Part shown: positions 293-10,558 of the stretch, one piece after another
How positions within the stretch are numbered: the first letter of the stretch is position 1
Layout of the letters: each line of letters opens with the position of its first letter
Assembly (NCBI GenBank): GCA_946478975.1
Contig: CAMLEO010000257.1
Location: 1-10,558 of the forward strand
Length of the DNA stretch: 10,558 nucleotides
Source: an uncultured Steroidobacter sp.
Lineage (GTDB): Bacteria > Pseudomonadota > Gammaproteobacteria > Steroidobacterales > Steroidobacteraceae
Reading direction: 5' to 3'
Translations under genes and position numbers: made by a program
Notes under the pieces: model-generated
Databases searched by the model: none
The model's input: only the letters and a program-made list of their open reading frames with translations
Told to the model about the DNA's origin: nothing

Positions 293-547
293 CGGACGTT
301 CGACGCATCACGCACGCGCAGGGTTGCAGTGGGCCGAGCGCATCTGCCGTCATCGTCGAAGGTAGGTTTTATTCTGGGGGAGCTGAATGCGCGAATGGAG
401 GGCCGTGCGGCCGGCGCATCGAGCGACGGAAAAGCAGTGATCTGAACTCCCCCGCCGTGCTGAGAATATACCGCATCGGGGGGCTTGCCGAAAGCCGGGG
501 GCGATGACGCAGCATCGCGGCCGTTGCTTGATTACGGGAGCGATAAG
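293..547. promoter_or_regulatory. Divergent intergenic region between the exported protein and the glycosyltransferase
   Basis: This 255-bp gap holds no convincing gene. On the plus strand a possible weak sigma-70 promoter is seen: CTGAAC at 442-447, 16 bases, then GAATAT at 464-469, which would give a 5' leader of roughly 70 bases for the glycosyltransferase. The -10-like segment lies between CCCCCG (449-454) and CGGGGG (477-482), which could pair as a 6-bp GC stem with a loop of about 22 bases. A 17-codon ATG frame at 385-438 has a purine-rich run (GGGGGAG) just upstream but looks like chance. No promoter is recognisable for the minus-strand gene. Confidence 0.3.
536..540 (+). promoter_or_regulatory. 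Ribosome binding site that fixes the glycosyltransferase start
   Basis: GGGAG at 536-540 is followed by 7 bases and then ATG at 548. This spacing favours ATG 548 over an in-frame TTG at 485, whose extra 21 residues have no family similarity and lie ahead of the conserved first beta strand. Confidence 0.7.
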
Positions 548-1759
548 ATGCGCGTGTTGTTGACCACCTTTGGATCACGTGGCGATGTTCAGCCGGTGCT
601 CGCGCTTGCAGTCGCTTTACGAGCATTGGGCACGGATGCACGCGTGTGCGCGCCTCCGGATGAGGAGTTTGCAAAACTTTTTGACGCCGCCGGCGTGCCG
701 CTGTTGCCAGCGTTCACGACTGTCCGCGATTGGGTCGCCGAACGTTTGGCGAAGCGCGCGACGATTTCGTTGCCCCAGGTTGCGGCCCAGGTGATGGCGG
801 CACAGTACGAGGCCATCGGTGCGGCCGCCCGTGGATGTGACGTGATGGTTGCGACCGGCCTGTTCTCCTCCGTCCTCGCCGCGCGAGCGGTCGCTGAAAA
901 ACTGGGCGTGCATTACATACACGCAGCGTACTGCCCGATGTTTCTACCTTCGCCCCATCAAGCCCCGATGGAATTTCCCAGCCACCCCAATCCGCCGGGC
1001 ATGACTGACAATCAGCAGCTGTGGGACAGAAACATCCAGGTGATGAACGAGATCTTCGGCGCAGGCATCAACACGCTGCGTGCATCCGTTGGCTTGCCGA
1101 AGGTTGATAACGTGCGCGATCACGGCTTCACCGATCACCCCTGGCTGGCCGCAGATCCCGTGCTCGCGCCGTGGCGGCCGATACCGACACTCAACGTCAC
1201 GCAAACGGGAGCCTGGATTCTGCCGGACGAGCGGCCGCTGCCGACGGATCTGCTCACATTCCTCGATCGCGGCGACGCGCCCGTGTACGTCGGTTTCGGA
1301 AGTCTTCCCGCCCCGAAGGACTTTGCTCGCATGGCGATCGACGTCGTGCGAGCTCAAGGGCGTCGCGTGCTTCTTTCGCGCGGCTGGGCGGAGCTTGCGC
1401 TAGTGGACCAGCAGCCAGACTGCTTCATCGTCGATGAGGTCAACCAGCAAGCGTTGTTTCCTCGCGTGGCGGCAGTCGTTCATCACGGCGGCGCAGGCAC
1501 GACGACAGCGGCAGCGCGGGCCGGGACGCCTCAAGTCGTCGTGCCGCAACTCGCCGATCAGCCTTATTGGGCCGGCCGGGTTTGGGACCTCGGGATCGGT
1601 GCAGCTCACAACGGCCCGGCGCCGACAGCGGAGTCGTTGTCTGCCGCACTCACATCCGCGCTGAGCGACGGAGTTCGATCACGCGCGCAGTCGGTTGCAA
1701 ACACGATGCCCGGTGACGGAGCGATGCGAGCGGCAAAACTACTGCTCGAATCAACTTAG
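548..1759 (+). CDS. Glycosyltransferase, GT1/GT28 type (GT-B fold)
   Basis: This 403-residue protein is predicted to transfer a sugar from a nucleotide-sugar to a small, probably lipophilic acceptor, as do sterol and antibiotic glycosyltransferases of family GT1. Two Rossmann-like halves are recognisable. The N-terminal acceptor half (Glyco_transf_28 type) opens MRVLLTTFGSRGDVQP, with GSRGDVQP at residues 9-16; Asp13 occupies the position proposed as general base in the vancomycin-type Gtf enzymes. The C-terminal donor half carries HHGGAGTT (312-319), which should bind the donor phosphates, followed by ADQPYW (336-341), where the D-Q pair normally contacts the sugar. The length is typical for the family. 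No signal peptide or membrane segment is visible, so it should be cytosolic. No biosynthetic partner gene lies beside it and the acceptor is unknown. Its stop codon lies inside the 3' end of the convergent DUF885 gene. Confidence 0.9.
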   Translation: MRVLLTTFGSRGDVQPVLALAVALRALGTDARVCAPPDEEFAKLFDAAGVPLLPAFTTVRDWVAERLAKRATISLPQVAAQVMAAQYEAIGAAARGCDVMVATGLFSSVLAARAVAEKLGVHYIHAAYCPMFLPSPHQAPMEFPSHPNPPGMTDNQQLWDRNIQVMNEIFGAGINTLRASVGLPKVDNVRDHGFTDHPWLAADPVLAPWRPIPTLNVTQTGAWILPDERPLPTDLLTFLDRGDAPVYVGFGSLPAPKDFARMAIDVVRAQGRRVLLSRGWAELALVDQQPDCFIVDEVNQQALFPRVAAVVHHGGAGTTTAAARAGTPQVVVPQLADQPYWAGRVWDLGIGAAHNGPAPTAESLSAALTSALSDGVRSRAQSVANTMPGDGAMRAAKLLLEST

Positions 1760-3523
1760 CCGTCGCTGGATCCACTCGTCGACCAATTGCTCCAGCGTTG
1801 CGAGCGGGACCGCCCCGTTCGAGAGCACCACGTCGTGGAACTCGCGGATATCGAAACGCGAACCGAGCTGCTGCTGCGCGCGGGCACGCAGCTCGAGAAT
1901 TTTCAGCTGGCCGATCTTGTAAGCGAGCGCCTGCCCGGGCCATTCGATATAACGATCGACTTCGTTGGCGATGTCCGCTTCGCTGCGTGCCGCATGCGCA
2001 TTGAAATAGGCGATGGCCTGGTCGCGCGTCCAATGTTTGTAATGGATGCCAGTATCGACGACGAGCCGCACCGCGCGCCACATCTCGTAAGTGAGCTGGC
2101 CGAACTTGGAGTATGGATCGCGATACAACCCGAGCTCGTCCCCCAGGCTTTCGGCGTAGAGACCCCAGCCTTCGTTGAACGCGATTGCACCGCCATCGCC
2201 GCCGGCGTCGCGACGGAAGTTCGGCAAGCCTTCCAACTCGCGCGAGAGTGCAATCTGCAAATGGTGGCCCGGCACCGCTTCGTGCGCCGTGAGCACTTCG
2301 ATCTCGTACTTGGCACGGATCTCCGGACGATACAAGTTCACGTAGTAATAACCGGCGCGTGAACCATCGGCCGCGGGCGCCATGTAATACGCGACCGCCG
2401 TATTCTGCGCGATCTCTTCGGGGACGGGACGGACGCCGTAGGGCGTGCGAGGAAGCTTACGGAACAGCTTCACGAGCTCGGGCTCGATGGACTTCGCGGT
2501 GACGATATAAGCCCGCAGCAGATCGTCGGGCGATTTGAAATAAAACTGCGGATCGGTGCGCAGGAACACCAGGAACTCTGCGAAGCTGCCCTTGAAGCCG
2601 GTCTGTCGCATCACCTCATTCATCTGCTGCTCGATGCGCGCCACCTCCTTCAAGCCGATGGCGTGAATCTCTTCCGGCGTCATCGATGTAGTCGTGAAGT
2701 GCTGAGCGCGTTGCGCATAGAACGCGTCCCCGTTCGGCGTGTCCCACAGGCCCACTGTGGCTCGACTCGCTGGCAAGTAGCGTTGGCGAAAGAACTGTTC
2801 GAAGCGGCGATACGCTGGCAGCACGACGCTGGCGATCGCTTGTTTGCCCTCAGCCTGCAATCGCGCACGCTCGTCCGCAGCGACTGAGGCTGGAATTCGT
2901 GTGAAGGGCCGATAGAAAGCACTTTGCGTCGGATCTTTGACGGCGATCAATGCTGCCAGCGCGGTCTCGACGCGATCCATGACGACTCGCGGCTGAACGC
3001 GCCTCTCGCGAATGCCCCGCTCCAGCAACGCTTTGTTCTGATCGAGATAACGATCGATGGACCGCAGCCGGGCGATCCAGTTGTCGTAATCGGCGACCGT
3101 TGCGAACGGCAGCGCTTCGGCTTCGGCGGACAGACGATGTACGCCTTCACCCGCGCGCAGGTCGAAAAGATATGACTCGAAGGAGAAGGCCGCGACTCGG
3201 GTTCGATATCGATGCCGGAACACATCGTAGTTGAGGCGCTCGGCAGGCGTCAGCAGCTCGCGATCGATGTGATCCAATCGCGCCAGCGCTGCCACGTTCG
3301 CATCGTTGCGGCGCTGAAGCGCTCCGACAGACACATCCGGCCACAGCCGATCGTAACGACGGTCGCCTCGACCCGAAGCGAACAGAGGGTCTTCGCGCAA
3401 CCCTCGCTCCCAGGTCTCATCGAACAGCGCATGCAGCTCGCTCCTCGCCTGCTCCTGAGGCGACTGCGCATGGGCGGCAGCGGCAAACGCGAATATCGCC
3501 ACGCTGACGAATCCCTTGACCAT
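1751..3523 (-). CDS. Secreted DUF885 family protein, probable metallopeptidase-like enzyme
   Basis: The gene encodes a DUF885 (PF05960) protein of 590-591 residues, a normal length for exported members. It starts with a clear Sec signal (Met-Val-Lys, a hydrophobic Ala/Phe core, cleavage at AHA-QS near residue 20), so it should act in the periplasm or outside the cell. Numbered from the first Met, HEAVPGHH lies at 415-422 and FNEGWGLY at 450-457. The two His of the HExxx-GHH motif plus Glu452 look like the metal ligands and catalytic Glu of a zinc-peptidase-like active site; a peptidase role is family-level inference and the substrate is unknown. Two adjacent ATG codons (3524-3526 and 3521-3523) compete as start. 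GGAGG at 3528-3532 leaves 1 base before the first and 4 before the second, so I prefer 3523. The last 9 bp overlap the end of the convergent glycosyltransferase. Confidence 0.9.
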   Translation of the reverse strand: MVKGFVSVAIFAFAAAAHAQSPQEQARSELHALFDETWERGLREDPLFASGRGDRRYDRLWPDVSVGALQRRNDANVAALARLDHIDRELLTPAERLNYDVFRHRYRTRVAAFSFESYLFDLRAGEGVHRLSAEAEALPFATVADYDNWIARLRSIDRYLDQNKALLERGIRERRVQPRVVMDRVETALAALIAVKDPTQSAFYRPFTRIPASVAADERARLQAEGKQAIASVVLPAYRRFEQFFRQRYLPASRATVGLWDTPNGDAFYAQRAQHFTTTSMTPEEIHAIGLKEVARIEQQMNEVMRQTGFKGSFAEFLVFLRTDPQFYFKSPDDLLRAYIVTAKSIEPELVKLFRKLPRTPYGVRPVPEEIAQNTAVAYYMAPAADGSRAGYYYVNLYRPEIRAKYEIEVLTAHEAVPGHHLQIALSRELEGLPNFRRDAGGDGGAIAFNEGWGLYAESLGDELGLYRDPYSKFGQLTYEMWRAVRLVVDTGIHYKHWTRDQAIAYFNAHAARSEADIANEVDRYIEWPGQALAYKIGQLKILELRARAQQQLGSRFDIREFHDVVLSNGAVPLATLEQLVDEWIQRRLS

Positions 3524-3526
3524 CAT

Positions 3527-3588: not shown

Positions 3589-3984
3589 ATGCCGGTCAGC
3601 AGCGACTATCTTCAGTATGTGCTCGAACAGCTGGCTCGCTTACCGCGAGTGACTTCGCGGCGGATGTTCGGGGGCATCGGCCTGTACAGCGACGGCGTGT
3701 TCTTCGGCATCATCGACAACGACACGCTGTTCTTCAAAACAGACGACAGCACGCGCGAGCGTTATGTCGCGCTCGGCAGCCAGCCGTTTCGTCCGTACAA
3801 GGATCGACCGGAGGTGAGCATGAGCTACTTCCACGTGCCCGCAGAGATTCTGGAAGACGCTGACGAGCTCGTGCCCTGGGCTCAAGGTGCGGTTCGCGCG
3901 GCGGGTGCAGCGGCCGAGATGAAGCGCAAACCCAAGCGAGCTGCGAAGAAACGCGCCACGCGAAAGAAGTCGCGTGGCGCCTGA
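3589..3984 (+). CDS. TfoX/Sxy N-terminal-domain protein with a basic C-terminal tail
   Basis: This 131-residue protein consists of a single TfoX N-terminal domain (PF04993) at about residues 5-105. The family signature RRMFGGIGLY is at 24-33, followed by the usual short beta strands (VFFGIIDNDTLFFK, then RPYKDRPEVSMSYFHVP). The C-terminal domain of full-length Sxy/TfoX is absent, as in many small stand-alone TfoX-like proteins, which have no established role in competence. Residues 111-131 form a separate tail with 12 Lys/Arg in 21 positions; it may bind nucleic acid, but its DNA also doubles as a terminator hairpin, which may partly explain its composition. The ATG at 3589 is chosen because the domain begins directly after it; no Shine-Dalgarno sequence precedes it. 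The protein lacks a signal peptide and should be cytosolic. The gene ends 12 bp before the convergent receptor gene. Confidence 0.88.
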   Translation: MPVSSDYLQYVLEQLARLPRVTSRRMFGGIGLYSDGVFFGIIDNDTLFFKTDDSTRERYVALGSQPFRPYKDRPEVSMSYFHVPAEILEDADELVPWAQGAVRAAGAAAEMKRKPKRAAKKRATRKKSRGA

Positions 3985-3996: not shown

Positions 3997-6957
3997 TCAG
4001 AACTTCACTCGAGCGCCAACACTGTAGCGTGGTCCGTTCTCGTAGAAGCCGACGGGGATGCCGTCGTCGGTGTGCTGGTAGATCACCTCGTTGGTGATGT
4101 TGACTGCCGCGAGGTACACCGAGACGTCCTGCGTCACATTCCAGTTCGCCGTCGCATCGAGCTGCTTGTAAGCATCGGTGACGATCTGCGATCCCATGGT
4201 GAGCGCGCCATAAGCATCGGAGCGATAGTTATAGGACAGGCGCGCGCCGAAGCGATCGTTCTCGAAATACACCGACGCGTTCAGCTGATCCTCCGAATTG
4301 CCCTGGAGCTTGAGCTTCGGCTGGCCGGGCACAGGATCGACCTTCGCATCCGTAAACGTATAGTTCAGCAACATGCCGAAGCCCGCGCCGAACGACTGCT
4401 GCCACTGCAGCTCGACACCTTGAATATCGGCGCCTTCGTCGCTGTTGAACGGACGCGTGACATTCAACACGCGGCCATCGATGGTTTCGCTGGCCGTGCG
4501 CTTGTAGATGAACGTGTCGAGGCTCTTCCAGAAGTACGTCGCAGACACCAGTGACGCATCGGCGAAGTACCATTCCGCCCCCAGCTCGAACTGATCGGCA
4601 TAGATCGGATCGAGCAGTGGATTGCCGGCGCTGGCGCTGCCCGTCGTCGCGTCGATGGTGATGTTTGCACTCAAGTCCTGGAACGTATTGCGCGCCATCG
4701 CACGCGACGCGGCGCCTCGCACCAGCAGGTCGTCCCTGATTTCGAACACTGCATTCAAGCTGGGCAGATAGTCCGTGTACGTCCTCGACACCGTGCCGCG
4801 CGCACCGTTGATGTACGCCGTCGAGTCCTGCTCCGTGCGGATGCCACGCAGGCCGAGATTGCCTCGCAGGCGGCCCGACTCGAAATCGCCTTTGATATAC
4901 GCCGCCGTGATCTGCTCGTTGATCTTGTAGTACGCAAGCTGATCGAACGTGTACTGCAGGTCCAGCAGCGGGTTGATGACTCGCATGGCAGCCGCACCAT
5001 CGAGCCACGCATAGCGTCGCAACGATCCGGCCGTGCCCGCCTCGCCGTGCAACTCAGGCGTAATGCCGCCAGAGACGCGATCCATTGTGATCGCCTCCAG
5101 CGCCGCGCGATTCGGATTGTCGGGGCTCACGCGTCCGATGTGACGAGTGTTCTCGACCGTATCGTCACGAAACTTCACGCCGGTCTTGATGGCATTGAGC
5201 CAGCCCGCGTTCACTTTGAATGTGAGATCGCCCTGGCCGTAATACTCGTCCTCCTGCATCTTGCGCACCCAGTCGCGCAGGTTGTCGGGGACCAGGTGCA
5301 AGGCTGCGGGATTGGTTGCCTGCAGGTCCGGATACGACACTTCGATCGCCGACGGTCGCAGATTGATGGTTTCGCGCGTGTCGCCTTCGAACCAGTAGTT
5401 CTGGTCTCGATCGCTGCCGCCTTCGGCCTGCGTATAACCGACCTGGCCGTGCGCCACCCAACTCTCCGCATCGTAGGTGCCGTCCAGATCGATGACTTGT
5501 GACTTGATGAAAGCTTCGCGGTAGATCGGCTCGATCGCTGCGCCCGGCGTGGTGCTGTCGTTCAACGTACCCGCCACCAACGCGCGACGGCCGTCGCTGG
5601 TCGGCACGCACTCGGGAGTGGTAACTGTTGCTCCCCGCGGCAGCTTGTAGCCGCCGGGCATGAACAGATAGTTCTGGTTGTGATTATCCATGTCCATGTC
5701 GGAGTTGACGTAGTTGAGCGCGATGTCCCAACGATCCGTCGGCCGGAATTGCAACGTTGCATTCGCGGTGAGACGCTCGCGATCCTGCAGGAAGATGGCC
5801 GAACCGCCGCCCCACACGACATACACATCGTCGGTCACGTGACCGTTCTGGTCGGTGATGTCGAACAGCGTGTTGTCCGGAAACGCTTCCAGACCGTCGC
5901 GTCGCATCTTGCGCTTCTGATAACTCACGGACGCGAGCGCGCCGAACGTGCCACTGTCGTTTTTCCAGCTCACCAGGCCCGAGAACTGCGGGTCCACTTT
6001 ATCGGGCAGGTCGCTGTATTGAGCTTCGCCGGACAGCCGCACCGTGAACGGTTCCAAATCCATCGGCCGTCGAGTGCGCACGTTGACCAGGCCGCCGATG
6101 CTGCCTTCGTCCAGATCCGCTTGCGGGCTCTTGTGCACTTCCAGGCCGGCAACGAGCTCCGAGGCGAGGATGTCGTAATTGAAACCTCGGCTCGGATTGT
6201 CGTTCGCCCACCAGTACGCGGACGCCACGCTCTGCCCGTTCATCACGGTGCGATTCATGGTGCTGTCGGTGCCGCGAACAAAAATATCCCGGCCTTCGCC
6301 CCAGATGCGATCGACCGAGATGCCGGGAATTCGCTGCAACGAGTCCGCGACGTTCTTGTCCGGAAACTTGCCGATGTCTTCGGAGGTGATGACATCGAGC
6401 ACGGCGGTCGCTTCGCGCTTTGTTTGCAGCGACTCGCGCACGCTGCCGCGAATGCCGCTGACGACGACTTCCTCCAGCGAGCTGCCGCCGCCTTCGTTTC
6501 CTTCGGTCTGCCGCAAGCTGCGCACTTGCGGTGGCACATGCGTCATCGGAACAGTCTCCGCTTGTGCCAGCCGGATGAAACCCGGCTCGCGCCGTTCCGT
6601 CGCGCCCTGTGGTGATTTCAGCGGCGATTTCAGCGTCGCTTTGCCGGTCGGCAGAATCGTGACGGTGCGATGGTCGAGAAATTCGAACTCGAGCCCCGTG
6701 TCCGCCAGCAACTGGCGCAGTGCCTCGTCCGAGGGCAATCCGCTCGGCACCGCCGAAGACTTCACGCGATCGGCAACCCGAGACATATAAACAATCTGCA
6801 GTCCCGTCTGACGCGACAGCTCGGTCAGCGCGCTGTCGACAGGTTGCGAAGGAATGGCTTGGGTGATGAGTGCCCGGTCGACCTCCTGGGCCGCGGCCAA
6901 GGTGGAACTGAACGTCAACGCGATCACAATTGCCAGCCGGCGAGCTCGTCCGCACAT
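3997..6957 (-). CDS. TonB-dependent receptor with STN signalling domain (TBDR1)
   Basis: A complete 986-residue outer-membrane transducer of the FecA type. Residues 1-23 form a Sec signal (LAAA-Q cleavage). Residues 25-103 are an STN domain (QPVDSALTELSRQTGLQIVY ... RTVTILP), the part that contacts a FecR-type regulator in the periplasm. A Ser/Pro/Gly-rich linker follows, then a candidate TonB box EEVVVSG (162-168) and the plug domain at about 170-295, with IGKFPDKNVADSLQRIPG, RDIFVRG and GSIGGLVNVRT. These motifs match the Xanthomonas/Caulobacter-type receptor group. The rest is a long beta barrel ending in Phe (YSVGARVKF), as expected for assembly by the Bam complex. The substrate is not readable; the group includes sugar, oligosaccharide and siderophore transporters. 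AGGAGG at 6966-6971, 8 bases before the ATG, supports this start. The gene lies 76 bp after fecR behind a predicted sigma-factor-specific promoter. Confidence 0.93.
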   Translation of the reverse strand: MCGRARRLAIVIALTFSSTLAAAQEVDRALITQAIPSQPVDSALTELSRQTGLQIVYMSRVADRVKSSAVPSGLPSDEALRQLLADTGLEFEFLDHRTVTILPTGKATLKSPLKSPQGATERREPGFIRLAQAETVPMTHVPPQVRSLRQTEGNEGGGSSLEEVVVSGIRGSVRESLQTKREATAVLDVITSEDIGKFPDKNVADSLQRIPGISVDRIWGEGRDIFVRGTDSTMNRTVMNGQSVASAYWWANDNPSRGFNYDILASELVAGLEVHKSPQADLDEGSIGGLVNVRTRRPMDLEPFTVRLSGEAQYSDLPDKVDPQFSGLVSWKNDSGTFGALASVSYQKRKMRRDGLEAFPDNTLFDITDQNGHVTDDVYVVWGGGSAIFLQDRERLTANATLQFRPTDRWDIALNYVNSDMDMDNHNQNYLFMPGGYKLPRGATVTTPECVPTSDGRRALVAGTLNDSTTPGAAIEPIYREAFIKSQVIDLDGTYDAESWVAHGQVGYTQAEGGSDRDQNYWFEGDTRETINLRPSAIEVSYPDLQATNPAALHLVPDNLRDWVRKMQEDEYYGQGDLTFKVNAGWLNAIKTGVKFRDDTVENTRHIGRVSPDNPNRAALEAITMDRVSGGITPELHGEAGTAGSLRRYAWLDGAAAMRVINPLLDLQYTFDQLAYYKINEQITAAYIKGDFESGRLRGNLGLRGIRTEQDSTAYINGARGTVSRTYTDYLPSLNAVFEIRDDLLVRGAASRAMARNTFQDLSANITIDATTGSASAGNPLLDPIYADQFELGAEWYFADASLVSATYFWKSLDTFIYKRTASETIDGRVLNVTRPFNSDEGADIQGVELQWQQSFGAGFGMLLNYTFTDAKVDPVPGQPKLKLQGNSEDQLNASVYFENDRFGARLSYNYRSDAYGALTMGSQIVTDAYKQLDATANWNVTQDVSVYLAAVNITNEVIYQHTDDGIPVGFYENGPRYSVGARVKF
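6614..6637 (-). repeat. Two tandem 12-bp units in the STN-to-plug linker of TBDR1
   Basis: GATTTCAGCGGC (6614-6625) and GATTTCAGCGTC (6626-6637) differ at one base. In frame on the minus strand they encode the doubled Leu-Lys-Ser-Pro in the TBDR1 linker at about residues 109-116. The repeat keeps the frame and only changes linker length, so it looks like recent slippage in a flexible, unconstrained segment. Confidence 0.6.
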
Positions 6958-6996: not shown

Positions 6997-7030
6997 TACG
7001 AGGCGGTTGCCGCACATCCGGGTACGAAAT
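6997..7030 (-). promoter_or_regulatory. Predicted ECF-sigma-dependent promoter of TBDR1
   Basis: On the minus strand, ATTTCGTACCCG (7030-7019), 16 bases and CTCGTA (7002-6997) lie in the 76-bp gap between fecR and TBDR1. The same two boxes with the same spacing occur before the sigma gene. CGTA in the downstream box fits the CGT-type -10 core seen in many ECF promoters. Transcription would start near 6990, giving a leader of roughly 33 bases that includes the AGGAGG site. That the local sigma factor reads it is inference from the shared motif and gene context. Confidence 0.7.
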
Positions 7031-7033
7031 ATT

Positions 7034-8128
7034 TCAGAGCACTGGCGCTGCCGCGCTGACGACGATCTCCTCGCGACCCCGCGCCACGTGTATATCCGGC
7101 TGACGCTCCAGGAATCGCAGGAAAGATTCCGCGTCGTAAGCACTGAAGATGCCGCTGATCTGCGTCGCCCGCAGCTCGGCGCCTTCCACTCGAATGCGTC
7201 GTTCAGCGTAGCGGTTGAATTCCTCGATCGCGGAGCCGAGCGGATCGTGATCGAACACGACCTGGCGCTGCAGCCACGCCACAGTCTTGCGCACCGTGTT
7301 GCCACGTTGTGAGATCTCGGCCGTACGACCGCTGATCATCGCTTGCTGATCGGCATCGAGTTGCGCGATCAGCTGTCGCATACCCTCGTTCGTGTCGACA
7401 TCCAGCGCGCGACGTGCATGCTCGAATACATCATCGGGCAAGCGCCACACCGCGACGCGCCCTTCGAGCACGGAAATCAGCGTGCGTCCTGGCTGACGAT
7501 AGACATCGAACTCCGTGCCCACGGCTCTTACCGCCGTATCGCCGGCGTAGACCCAGAACGGACGCTGCGGATCCTTGGCCACTTGAAACAAAGCCTGGCC
7601 GCGCACGAGCTCGACTCGCCGCTGCCGGCCGTCGAAGTGCACGCGAATCTCCGAGCTCGAATTCAAATGAACCGTCGAGCCATCCGGCATGCGCCAGGAG
7701 CGTTGCTCCGCATGGGCCGTTTGATAGTGATCGCGCTCATGAAACCACCAGCCGCCGCCGATCAGTACGGCAACCGCCGTCATCACCGCTGCAAGCGCCG
7801 TCCAAACATGAGCCCGCGCGGGAGAACGATTCGGCGCAGGACGCGGCGCAGTTGGAAACATCGGCTGCACCACGTCGTCATCTACTTCAGCACGCGCTCG
7901 CGCGATGAGCTCATCAGCAGGCGTCGTGTTCAGAGAAGCCGCCTGTTGCAAATCCTGCATGAAGCCCGTGAGCGCCACATACTCGTGCGCATGGGCCGGC
8001 GACTCGCACAACCAGTCGATGAACTGTTGCCGTTGAGCGGCGGTGAGATCGCCAGCGCGATGGAGCACGAACCACAGCTGCGCCTGGCTGGCGATCAAGG
8101 CGCGAACCGGATCCTGGCGGCGGTTCAT
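7034..8128 (-). CDS. FecR-family transmembrane anti-sigma/sigma regulator
   Basis: A 364-residue inner-membrane signalling protein that should hold or activate the neighbouring sigma factor in response to the receptor. Residues 10-58 form the cytoplasmic DUF4880-type helical segment that binds sigma (AQRQQFIDWLCESPAHAHEY). A Pro-rich stretch precedes a single membrane helix at about 108-128 (VWTALAAVMTAVAVLIGGGWWF). The periplasmic FecR domain spans about 138-230, with RMPDGSTVHLNSSSEI and VGTEFDVYRQPGRTLISVLE. Residues 290-358 resemble an STN fold and should meet the STN domain of TBDR1. A charged stretch of about 25 residues (231-255) interrupts the usual run from the FecR domain into the C-terminal part. 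The start at 8128 is chosen because GAGGGGG lies 7 bases upstream and the ATG overlaps the sigma stop as ATGA; an in-frame start 13 codons earlier lies inside the sigma gene and is less likely. Confidence 0.9.
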   Translation of the reverse strand: MNRRQDPVRALIASQAQLWFVLHRAGDLTAAQRQQFIDWLCESPAHAHEYVALTGFMQDLQQAASLNTTPADELIARARAEVDDDVVQPMFPTAPRPAPNRSPARAHVWTALAAVMTAVAVLIGGGWWFHERDHYQTAHAEQRSWRMPDGSTVHLNSSSEIRVHFDGRQRRVELVRGQALFQVAKDPQRPFWVYAGDTAVRAVGTEFDVYRQPGRTLISVLEGRVAVWRLPDDVFEHARRALDVDTNEGMRQLIAQLDADQQAMISGRTAEISQRGNTVRKTVAWLQRQVVFDHDPLGSAIEEFNRYAERRIRVEGAELRATQISGIFSAYDAESFLRFLERQPDIHVARGREEIVVSAAAPVL

Positions 8129-8652
8129 CGACCGGCCCCCTCGAAACGTTGCAGGCGATTGCGACACAGCGCGAGCCCCTGCATCACATACTTTTTCACG
8201 GCGTGCGTAGAGACGCCGAGCCGTGCGGCGATTTCTTCATACGACAGACCGTCGCGATACTGCAGGATCAGCACCGCCTGAAATTTCGCCGGCAATGTTT
8301 CGATCAGCTGCGAGGCCTGCGACAGCCGGACCTGCAGATCCACCTGCTCTTCCGGTGTGCGGAAATCGACCAGCGCCGGGTCCGTGGGCGGATCGACGGC
8401 ATCGACGGTGTGCTCCCAGCGACGATCCAATACCGCCTGCTCTCGCAGCAGGTTGACCGCCACCGTATATAGATAAGCCTCGGGATTGCGGATCAACTCG
8501 GCGCGATCGGCCCGCAACAGCCGCAGATACAGCTCTTGAGTGAGGTCCGACACATCGGCGGCCCGCCGCACCCGGCGCCGGATGAACGCAGCCAGATTTG
8601 GCCCATGCTGGCCAAAGATGCGGTCCCAGTAGCTCCGTCTGCCGTCCGTCAT
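8125..8652 (-). CDS. FecI-like ECF RNA polymerase sigma factor
   Basis: A 175-residue extracytoplasmic-function sigma factor. Sigma region 2 spans about residues 10-75, with the core-binding segment DVSDLTQELYLRLL (33-46) and the DNA-melting part EAYLYTVAVNLLREQ. Sigma region 4 spans about 118-168, with LPAKFQAVLILQYRDGLSYE and the helix-turn-helix IAARLGVSTHAVKKYVMQGL, which should read the -35 box. Length and motifs match FecI-type sigmas partnered with FecR and TonB receptors. The ATG at 8652 is chosen because sigma similarity begins just after it; a frame extending upstream to 8820 would overlap the preceding receptor gene and encodes low-complexity residues. No good Shine-Dalgarno sequence exists and a putative -10 box ends 6 bases upstream, suggesting a leaderless message. 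The stop overlaps the fecR start (ATGA), implying translational coupling. Confidence 0.92.
   Translation of the reverse strand: MTDGRRSYWDRIFGQHGPNLAAFIRRRVRRAADVSDLTQELYLRLLRADRAELIRNPEAYLYTVAVNLLREQAVLDRRWEHTVDAVDPPTDPALVDFRTPEEQVDLQVRLSQASQLIETLPAKFQAVLILQYRDGLSYEEIAARLGVSTHAVKKYVMQGLALCRNRLQRFEGAGR
8136..8142 (-). promoter_or_regulatory. Ribosome binding site of fecR inside the sigma gene
   Basis: GAGGGGG on the minus strand (8142-8136) ends 7 bases before the fecR ATG at 8128. It selects that ATG over the earlier in-frame start and places the fecR initiation signal within the last codons of the sigma gene. Confidence 0.6.
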
Positions 8653-8658
8653 ATTACA

Positions 8659-8692
8659 TACGAGTGTTCCCCGGCCAGGTCGGGTACGAAAT
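8659..8692 (-). promoter_or_regulatory. Predicted autoregulated promoter of the ECF sigma gene
   Basis: On the minus strand, ATTTCGTACCCG (8692-8681), 16 bases and CTCGTA (8664-8659) fill most of the 49-bp gap between TBDR2 and the sigma gene. Both boxes and the spacer length are identical to those before TBDR1, while the spacer sequences differ. Six bases (TGTAAT) separate the downstream box from the sigma ATG, so transcription should start at or next to the start codon. Positive autoregulation is inferred from the motif. Confidence 0.7.
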
Positions 8693-8701
8693 TCACCCGG
8701 C

Positions 8702-10558
8702 CTAGAAGCGATAGGACGCCCCCATCGTATAGGTGCGGCCGGTGAGCGTCTGATACAGCGGATCCTTGCGCCGGGAGTCGCTGTACTGGGTGGCCCATTC
8801 ATTGGTGAGATTCTGGGCATCGAGCGTCAGGCGCAGGCGATCCGTGACCGCATACGAGCTCGATGCATCGACGAAGATACTCGAACGAACGCCGTCGACG
8901 TCGCTGCCCGGGCCGCCGGAGGGCACCGTGACCAGGTAGCCGCTGCGATAGTTGAGCGAGGCGCGAATGCTGAACCTGCCGTCGTCGTAGTAGATCGTGC
9001 CGTTGGCGGAATGTTTGGACAGGCCGGCAAGATCGGTGGTCACGGTCTGTTCGGCATTCGCACCGACGACGTAGTCGACCTCCGAAGACACATAGACGTA
9101 ATTCAACAGCGTACCCAGCTTCGACAGGAACCCCGGCAAGAACGTAAACGGCTGCTGATAGTTGATCTCGAATCCTTTGAGCGGCCCGCCCTTAGCATTC
9201 ACCGCGCGCGTGACCTGAAACAAATCGTCGGGCGTCGCCTGCGAACCCTGCAGGATGCTCGGCGGCAACCCGGTCTCGCTGAAAGGCACCAGCCGTCGCA
9301 CGACCTGCACCGTGCTTTCGATGTCTTTATAAAACAAGCCCAGCGACACCAGCCCGCCGGTGCCGAAGTAATATTCAGCCGCGAGGTCCAGCGTGTTGGC
9401 GCGAACCGGATCGAGATTTGGATTGCCTATCGACAAGCCTCGGGAGACTGTCGTGATCGTGCCACCTGGGTTGAGCAGCGACAGCGGCGGCCGCGACATC
9501 ACGCGTGCGGCAGACAATCGCAGTTGCAGATCGGGTGTGAGTTCCGCGGCGAGATTCAGTGACGGCAGGACATCGTCGTACGAGCGTTTGATCACCGCTG
9601 CCTGAAAGAACAGCGGCGCCGGCAATATCACATAGCCCTTGGTTTCTACATCGGTCTGGAGGTAACGCACGCCCACGTTCCCGCGCGTCGTGAACGGCAG
9701 CAGATGCGTCTCGAAATCCAGTTGCACGAACCCACCGGTCACCTGCTCATCCACGGAGAAATTGCTGCCGAGCGCCTGGCTGTTGGGACCGACACCGACC
9801 AACTCGAACACGCCGCTGTTCGATTCGAGACCGAACACTTGATTGAACCGGTCGTAATCCGCAGCGACCCAGCCGCTCGGCACACCGCCACCGAGCCCGC
9901 GACCGAAGTGATCGATCTGGCGAGTGATGCTCGCGAGCGTCGTCCCCGCGGGAAGCGACGGCGTGATCCCGGACACCGTCGTTGCGCGTTGCGCCTGGCC
10001 GGAGGTGAATTCGCCCTCGCGATACTGTCCGCCGAACCGAAGCTTGAGCGCGTCGTTGAACGTGACATTCGCGTTGAGATTGGTCGTGAGAAAATCGTTG
10101 CGAACCTGATTCTCGACCACGCCGAGAATGCCCGTCACCGTGCCGTCGGCGCGTGCGGGCCCGAACGCAAATGCATTCGGGTCGGTGATATCGATGCCAT
10201 AGTGGATGAGCGGAATGCGCCGGCCGCCGCGGTAGTCCCAGGAGAAGTCATTGGTGTTGACCGCATCCAAAGTAATCGTCGTGCGCACCGGCTGATCCAG
10301 ATCCGAGCGCGTAAAGCCGACGAGCCCGTCGAGCGCGAACGTGTCGTTGAGCGTGTGCTCCGCCGTCAACACCGCTTGTTTGATGGTGCTGACGTAGCGG
10401 TCGGTGACCGATTCGGAGCGCAGGTCGACGCCATTGAACAGGCCATATTCCCAAAATCCATCCGGCGCGATCTCCGCAGCCAGCACCGACGTATGCGGCT
10501 TGCCGTTGTTGCCGAGGCCGCGACCGAAAGAAATGGGCGTGATGAAATTGTCGCTGCG
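8702..10558 (-). CDS. TonB-dependent receptor, C-terminal 618 residues (TBDR2, runs off right edge)
   Basis: The reading frame is open from the right edge to the stop at 8702-8704, so the N-terminus, plug and any STN domain lie outside the window. A GTG at 10486 is not the real start, because the frame continues upstream of it with receptor-like sequence (DNFITPISFGRGLGNNG). The visible part is beta barrel: alternating aromatic strands and the conserved late-barrel segment NPNLDPVRANTLDLAAEYYF, followed by VSLGLFYKDIESTVQVV. It ends in Phe (YTMGASYRF), as outer-membrane barrels do. It is clearly diverged from TBDR1 rather than a recent copy. It ends 49 bp before the sigma gene on the same strand. 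Whether it belongs to the same regulon depends on its promoter, which is not in view; its ligand is unknown. Confidence 0.9.
   Translation of the reverse strand, partial: RSDNFITPISFGRGLGNNGKPHTSVLAAEIAPDGFWEYGLFNGVDLRSESVTDRYVSTIKQAVLTAEHTLNDTFALDGLVGFTRSDLDQPVRTTITLDAVNTNDFSWDYRGGRRIPLIHYGIDITDPNAFAFGPARADGTVTGILGVVENQVRNDFLTTNLNANVTFNDALKLRFGGQYREGEFTSGQAQRATTVSGITPSLPAGTTLASITRQIDHFGRGLGGGVPSGWVAADYDRFNQVFGLESNSGVFELVGVGPNSQALGSNFSVDEQVTGGFVQLDFETHLLPFTTRGNVGVRYLQTDVETKGYVILPAPLFFQAAVIKRSYDDVLPSLNLAAELTPDLQLRLSAARVMSRPPLSLLNPGGTITTVSRGLSIGNPNLDPVRANTLDLAAEYYFGTGGLVSLGLFYKDIESTVQVVRRLVPFSETGLPPSILQGSQATPDDLFQVTRAVNAKGGPLKGFEINYQQPFTFLPGFLSKLGTLLNYVYVSSEVDYVVGANAEQTVTTDLAGLSKHSANGTIYYDDGRFSIRASLNYRSGYLVTVPSGGPGSDVDGVRSSIFVDASSSYAVTDRLRLTLDAQNLTNEWATQYSDSRRKDPLYQTLTGRTYTMGASYRF

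Follow-up and report, generated by a model that had tools for sequence, protein, structure and literature searches.

The stretch of DNA analyzed here (10,558 nucleotides, hereafter the window) carries two identical bipartite promoter-like sites on its minus strand, one ahead of an ECF sigma factor gene and one ahead of the TonB-dependent receptor gene of the same FecI-FecR-receptor module. Judged from sequence comparisons, both sites are very probably the -35/-10 promoters of the adjacent ECF sigma factor (8652-8125), which would drive a positive loop restrained by FecR. The features of the window are as follows.

1751-3526, minus strand: DUF885 protein, downstream of the module receptor
3589-3984, plus strand: TfoX N-terminal domain protein, downstream of the module receptor
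3997-6957, minus strand: TonB-dependent receptor with an N-terminal STN-like signalling segment (TIGR01782, 654 bits; Plug and barrel)
6997-7030, minus strand: bipartite promoter-like site ahead of the receptor gene, ATTTCGTACCCG-N16-CTCGTA (exact match; 8.3 bits with the family model)
7034-8128, minus strand: FecR-like anti-sigma/sigma regulator (PF04773, 82.7 bits, and PF16220)
8125-8652, minus strand: FecI-like ECF sigma factor, 175 aa (Pfam Sigma70_r2 and Sigma70_r4_2)
8659-8692, minus strand: identical bipartite promoter-like site ahead of the sigma gene, ATTTCGTACCCG-N16-CTCGTA (exact match; 13.7 bits with the family model)
8702-10558, minus strand: second TonB receptor, truncated by the window edge and stopping 49 nt ahead of the sigma gene

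On the minus strand the genes follow the order sigma factor (8652-8125), fecR (8128-7034) and TonB receptor (6957-3997), and the ATG of fecR overlaps the stop codon of the sigma gene by 4 nt (ATGA). The sigma factor consists of regions 2 and 4 only, in about 175 residues, as is required of ECF (group IV) members, and it scored above the cut-offs of PF04542 (39.3 bits) and PF08281 (49.2 bits) and of TIGR02937 (72.6 bits, cut-off 42.9). It is not a FecI proper, reaching 69.2 bits with the NCBIfam equivalog NF041727 against a cut-off of 260. Its listed relatives are mostly metagenomic proteins, and the two that carry an organism name, P0018 and P0035, belong to Steroidobacteraceae. The neighboring FecR, whose domains were scanned over 8167-7034, exceeded the PF04773 cut-off of 24 bits, as expected for a FecIRA-type module, and the STN match of the receptor occupied the expected place (residues 54-103) at 24.3 bits, below the cut-off of 28.4. 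Because the DUF885 gene and, on the opposite strand, the TfoX gene lie downstream of the module receptor, this receptor is probably transcribed alone. The TonB receptor at 8702-10558 probably stands outside the module, since no receptor was found at the matching place in Steroidobacter gossypii. Elsewhere in the window, a glycosyltransferase at 485-1759 (plus strand) resembles the rifamycin-inactivating Rgt family (450 bits, below the 800 cut-off).

The sequence-only reading had reported an identical pair of sites at 7030-6997 and 8692-8659, and both proved exact. No further match to ATTTCGTACCCG-N16-CTCGTA with up to three mismatches occurred elsewhere in the window, and none appeared in 200 dinucleotide shuffles of it. 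All 18 box bases agree between the two sites as against 3 of 16 spacer bases, as had been described. The gene coordinates also agree with the claim that the sites lie directly ahead of the sigma and receptor genes: the sigma-side site is flanked by the upstream TonB receptor's stop codon (8702) and by the ATG of the sigma gene (8652), the receptor-side site falls between the fecR stop codon (7034) and the receptor ATG (6957), and a matching site ahead of the coupled fecR is absent from the window. Because the sigma-side -10-like box (window 8652-8664) ends 6 nt short of the sigma ATG, the sigma message may be leaderless or almost so; the same gap is 7 nt in the measure of the family-frame scan described below, where the median for sites of at least 9 bits is 43 nt. 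A 39-nt gap carrying AGGAGG separates the receptor-side site from the receptor ATG, and the receptor message probably starts with a conventional leader bearing a strong ribosome site.

The closest relative in the genome collection, and the sole close ortholog compared, was S. gossypii, whose sigma factor is 83-84% identical to that of the window. The sequence-only reading had named absence of the motif ahead of orthologous sigma and receptor genes as a refutation, and both S. gossypii gaps contain it: CGTACCCG-N16-CTCTTA (L001:8925-8958) ends 42 nt ahead of the sigma start, and CGTACCCG-N16-CCCGTA (L001:10638-10671; 6.0 bits by the family model) lies on the receptor side. Relative to the window, both sites keep 8 of 8 core bases, the N16 spacing and 5 of 6 bases of box 2, but the spacer, too, is well kept on the sigma side (12/16; 9/16 on the receptor side), and within S. 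gossypii, box 2 of the two sites agrees in only 4 of 6 bases. By the family model the receptor-side sites are weak in both genomes. The proposed 12+6-base boxes are therefore exact in the window, but S. gossypii retains only CGTACCCG-N16-C[TC]C[GT]TA. Searched with up to three mismatches, the full 33-base pattern was uninformative in S. gossypii (17 matches, 13 for the reversed control), and the refined core was therefore used. This refined motif has three exact copies in the 7.1-Mb genome, two of them inside the module, and 11 copies with at most one mismatch versus 29 for the reversed control; the random genomic scatter that had been named as a mark against the motif was not seen. Because the refined motif is so rare, the putative regulon looks confined to the module. 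No second match to the window sigma factor at E 1e-55 was found in 396 genomes of the order, nor were relatives of it found in viral contigs and plasmids at the limits used.

Box matching was then compared across 210 unique sigma-fecR modules, taken from sigma-relative loci and from FecR matches in S. gossypii (32 matches), Peristeroidobacter soli (104) and the MAG OFTM314 (at least 150). The samples comprised 30 of 32 loci in S. gossypii, 15 loci and 20 regions in P. soli, and 15 loci and 40 regions in OFTM314; the 258 modules found were reduced to 211 after removal of sigma-3'-end duplicates and of modules with less than 120 nt upstream, and to 210 owing to short flanks. About 130 nt ahead of the sigma gene and 200 nt after fecR were searched for a 7+6-base pair with one common spacer. 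A perfect 13-base match occurred within 21 of the 210 modules, compared with 0.28% of cross-module pairs, and at least 12 of 13 box bases were common within 60 of the 210, compared with 5.3% of cross pairs. Permutations restricted to the same genome gave p values of 1e-4 in OFTM314 (83 modules), 1e-4 in P. soli (36) and 0.001 in S. gossypii (27). The box words themselves vary widely, for example GGTAGCC-N16-CCCGTC (L036), GGTATCCAC-N15-ACCCTA (L117) and CGGTACC-N15-GACTCT (L003), and certain words recur (L116 and L157). A sizeable share of the related modules seem to be wired alike, each with its own matching signal.

The expansion of FecIR in these genomes is extreme: the 4.0-Mb OFTM314 (G140) holds at least 150 FecR genes (150 of 175 candidates were scored, with 150 matches), and the 9.4-Mb P. 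soli genome (G172) holds 104. In one module (L066), the receptor is very close to that of the window (phmmer E 0.0) and the adjoining sigma factor is just 35% identical to the window's, which suggests reassortment of sigma factor and receptor.

Two-block EM on the 420 regions converged from all four starts on one motif in shifted registers, with a best log-likelihood of 388 compared with 51 in a single run on shuffled input. The resulting family frame is GGTA[CT]CC[AG]-N14/15-C[AG]CTCT; in the EM register it reads GGTA[C/T]CC[A/G], followed by one further loose base, then by a gap (13-14 in 82% of sites) and C[A/G]CTCT[T/A]. Sites of at least 9 bits were present ahead of 33% of sigma genes, 32% of receptor genes and 0.5% of fecR genes, against controls of 5% and 2% on the opposite strand and 3-4% in shuffled regions. 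In held-out genomes at 8 bits, OFTM314 (n = 83) had 17 sigma-side sites, 12 receptor-side sites, 11 modules with both and none ahead of fecR, and P. soli with S. gossypii (n = 63) had 19, 19, 10 and 1, respectively; shuffled regions in this cross-validation gave 2.3% and 3.3%. Because only about one third of the regions have a called site, many modules carry other motifs or wiring. The proposal of a new sigma-specific promoter is supported by these alignments and scans, but the motif does not stand alone: it is the local form of a broader promoter frame.

The two sites of a module also resemble each other within this frame. In 42 modules where both were called separately at 8 bits, identity was 12.4/16 within and 9.47 between modules, with a maximum of 10.45 in 20,000 permutations, and gap length was equal in 83% of comparisons within modules versus 40% between them. 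Both sites occurred together (8 bits) more often than expected in OFTM314 (13 vs 5.2), P. soli (9 vs 6.2) and S. gossypii (4 vs 1.8); this excess was missing in the mixed group "other" (13 vs 14.9 expected) and in SZAS-87 (2 vs 2.4). The receptor-side site of the window was miscalled where the scan entered coding DNA, and the window was therefore scored 0 on the receptor side in the wiring count; the site is called correctly with the first column masked.

It is exceedingly improbable that the paired boxes arose by chance or are a functionless remnant of local duplication. Within-module spacers resemble each other slightly more than those of different modules do (0.395 vs 0.324, p below 1e-4), as a duplication would leave them, but the 15-nt flanks, unlike the spacers, are not significantly so (0.301 vs 0.272, p = 0.08, n = 37), so that duplication alone does not explain the pairs. 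The low spacer agreement in the window, the empty shuffles and the retention of both sites in S. gossypii likewise argue against this origin, and the earlier judgment that duplication explains the window pair poorly stands.

The recognition helix of the window sigma factor is S-T-H-A151-V-K-K-Y. By alignment, residue 151 corresponds to T169 of sigmaE and K153 to R171; in the sigmaE/SigW structures, T169 contacts the -34 backbone and R171 contacts the partner of -31 (PMC6713349). A mutual-information ranking also returned strong pairs outside the helices (e.g., D105, L110 and I12) and is confounded by kinship; therefore, only tests of residues 151 and 152 with masked columns were relied on.

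Among modules with a site called while the first -35 column was masked, Met151 sigma factors had G at that position in 59 of 63. HAV sigma factors had C in 7 of 7 called modules, and other sigma factors in 2 of 91 (p = 2.6e-9 without a correction for kinship); among sigma factors less than 60% identical the same test gave 5 of 5 versus 2 of 48 (p = 7e-6, n = 53). The nearest non-HAV relative of the window sigma factor (THAVKK, CGTACCCGA) is L003 (THMVKK, GGTACCCGA), at 51% identity; the two differ in helix residue 151 and in the first box base as the code predicts. The HAV pattern occurred at eight places in 217 family genomes, seven of them modules. In three modules that were not used for model building (L234, L239 and L241), CGTACC was the best sigma-side site with the column masked, at 12.4, 13.3 and 9.4 bits, and in L239 it was identical at both sites; L234 and L239 count among the seven HAV modules above, and L241 falls just below the 9.5-bit threshold. 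The HAV sigma factor L179/L238 had no called site; its CGTACC was weak and ranked behind a different match that also began with C. In 369 genomes of the class the HAV pattern turned up at a single additional place, L242, that could not be resolved into a module. On the tree, HAV changed at least five times, and C was found in 2.9 of 3 well-supported independent contrasts on average; three contrasts are too few for significance alone in tree sign tests.

For Thr151, the first base was A in 7, G in 3, T in 3 and C in 1 ahead of the sigma gene, and T in 2 and A in 1 ahead of the receptor. HTV-type helices were found at 12 places, 10 of which resolved into modules, 5 of them new; the best sites of the new modules start with A in L245 (12.7 bits), L254 (15.2), L249 (8.7) and L244 (5.0) and with C in L243 (7.4). 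The lone place with an HMV helix (L255) could not be resolved into a module. Among the sigma relatives of the window, P0006 (89% identical), P0015 and P0024 have HTV and P0011 has HLV at these residues, and P0001-P0005 have HAV. A weaker rule links Ala152 to T at the fourth base (10 of 22 modules versus 0 of 67 others), with T also at two Val152 sites when the sides are counted separately. As covariation, these patterns point to a partly readable code in which residue 151 would set the first -35 base (G for Met, C for HAV) and would do so loosely for Thr.

This covariation bears on two further explanations. The boxes might bind another regulator, such as a dimeric activator or repressor acting on both genes, with the promoter elements located elsewhere; the two genes act in one pathway suited to common control, and the 12-base first box exceeds the usual -35 length. 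We nevertheless consider this very unlikely, because the box bases covary with the recognition helix of the module's own sigma factor and the modules carry matched variants. The spacing, the position and the CTCGTA/CTCTTA-like second box are, moreover, typical of ECF promoters. Alternatively, the boxes could be promoters of a different, paralogous sigma factor in the same genome, through cross-talk or hierarchy. The many FecI-like modules counted above in related genomes would provide candidates, and some promoter variants are similar; yet the variant follows residue 151 of the adjacent sigma factor and matching within modules exceeds cross matching in the same genome, leaving this explanation only a slight chance of being correct. 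Recognition by the adjacent sigma factor is the reading pursued below.

The module resembles FecI-FecR-FecA of Escherichia coli in its gene order, in the 4-nt overlap of sigma gene and fecR, in the sigma target directly ahead of the receptor and in the analogous helix S-I-S-S-V-K-K-Y. It differs in that the window sigma factor falls far short of the FecI cut-off (69 bits against 260) and that the present family model finds nothing above 3.1 bits in the fecR-fecA gap of E. coli, which upholds the earlier remark that the motif is not the classical FecI target. The wiring differs as well. The respective papers report that FecI (fecIR) and HasI are not autoregulated (PMC9249621), that HemI also lacks autoregulation (PMC12772443), that no motif was found for FecI of Sinorhizobium meliloti (PMC6180224), and that Rhodius et al. 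left the FecI-like groups ECF05-10 out of their promoter models as non-autoregulating (PMC3817407). The window, in contrast to the non-autoregulated FecI, HasI and HemI, has a promoter-like site common to the sigma and receptor gaps. With autoregulated ECF sigma factors (e.g., the sigmaE and SigW groups) it would share the self-promoter logic and a region 4.2 helix reading the -35 element. A FecI-like promoter of this autoregulated type was not described in any of the surveyed titles and abstract openings.

FecI-like modules of Xanthomonadales (Dyella, Rhodanobacter, Stenotrophomonas and kin) show a related -35/-10 frame on the receptor side, such as GGTACCCGA-N13-GACTCTT in L008 and GTTCTCCAC in Stenotrophomonas. 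In these modules (among loci L008-L079, many of them closely related), a 9-bit site stands ahead of the receptor in 24 of 24 and ahead of the sigma gene in 0 of 24, whose best sigma-side score within about 260 nt is 8.7 bits (L010). By their sequence, these modules have the classical receptor-only wiring.

By analogy with the FecIRA paradigm, the ligand-bound receptor would signal through its STN-like segment to FecR, which would then release or activate the sigma factor. The site at 7030-6997 would let the sigma factor transcribe the receptor gene, and the site at 8692-8659 its own sigma-fecR operon, giving a positive loop with the co-made FecR as a presumed brake. Covariation suggests that the helix H150-A151-V152-K-K would read CGTACC, and that the nearest Met151 paralogs would read GGTACC. 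The original observation is thus confirmed, and its interpretation is supported and widened to a FecIRA-type module with predicted self-promoters and a partly readable promoter code.

For the family as a whole, we think it fairly likely that in Steroidobacteraceae and some relatives a FecI-like class has been rewired from receptor-only to self-amplifying control. Many modules per genome, perhaps dozens, would be insulated by private, matched promoter pairs built on one frame, with residue 151 setting the first -35 base (G for Met, C for the Ala of HAV, mostly A for Thr) and residue 152 influencing the fourth. If this is true, the promoters of many uncharacterized FecI-like sigma factors would become readable by comparing the two gaps of each module. 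Genomes with more than 100 FecR paralogs would then offer ready-made collections of sigma/promoter pairs, in which one could test how cross-talk among paralogous regulators is avoided.
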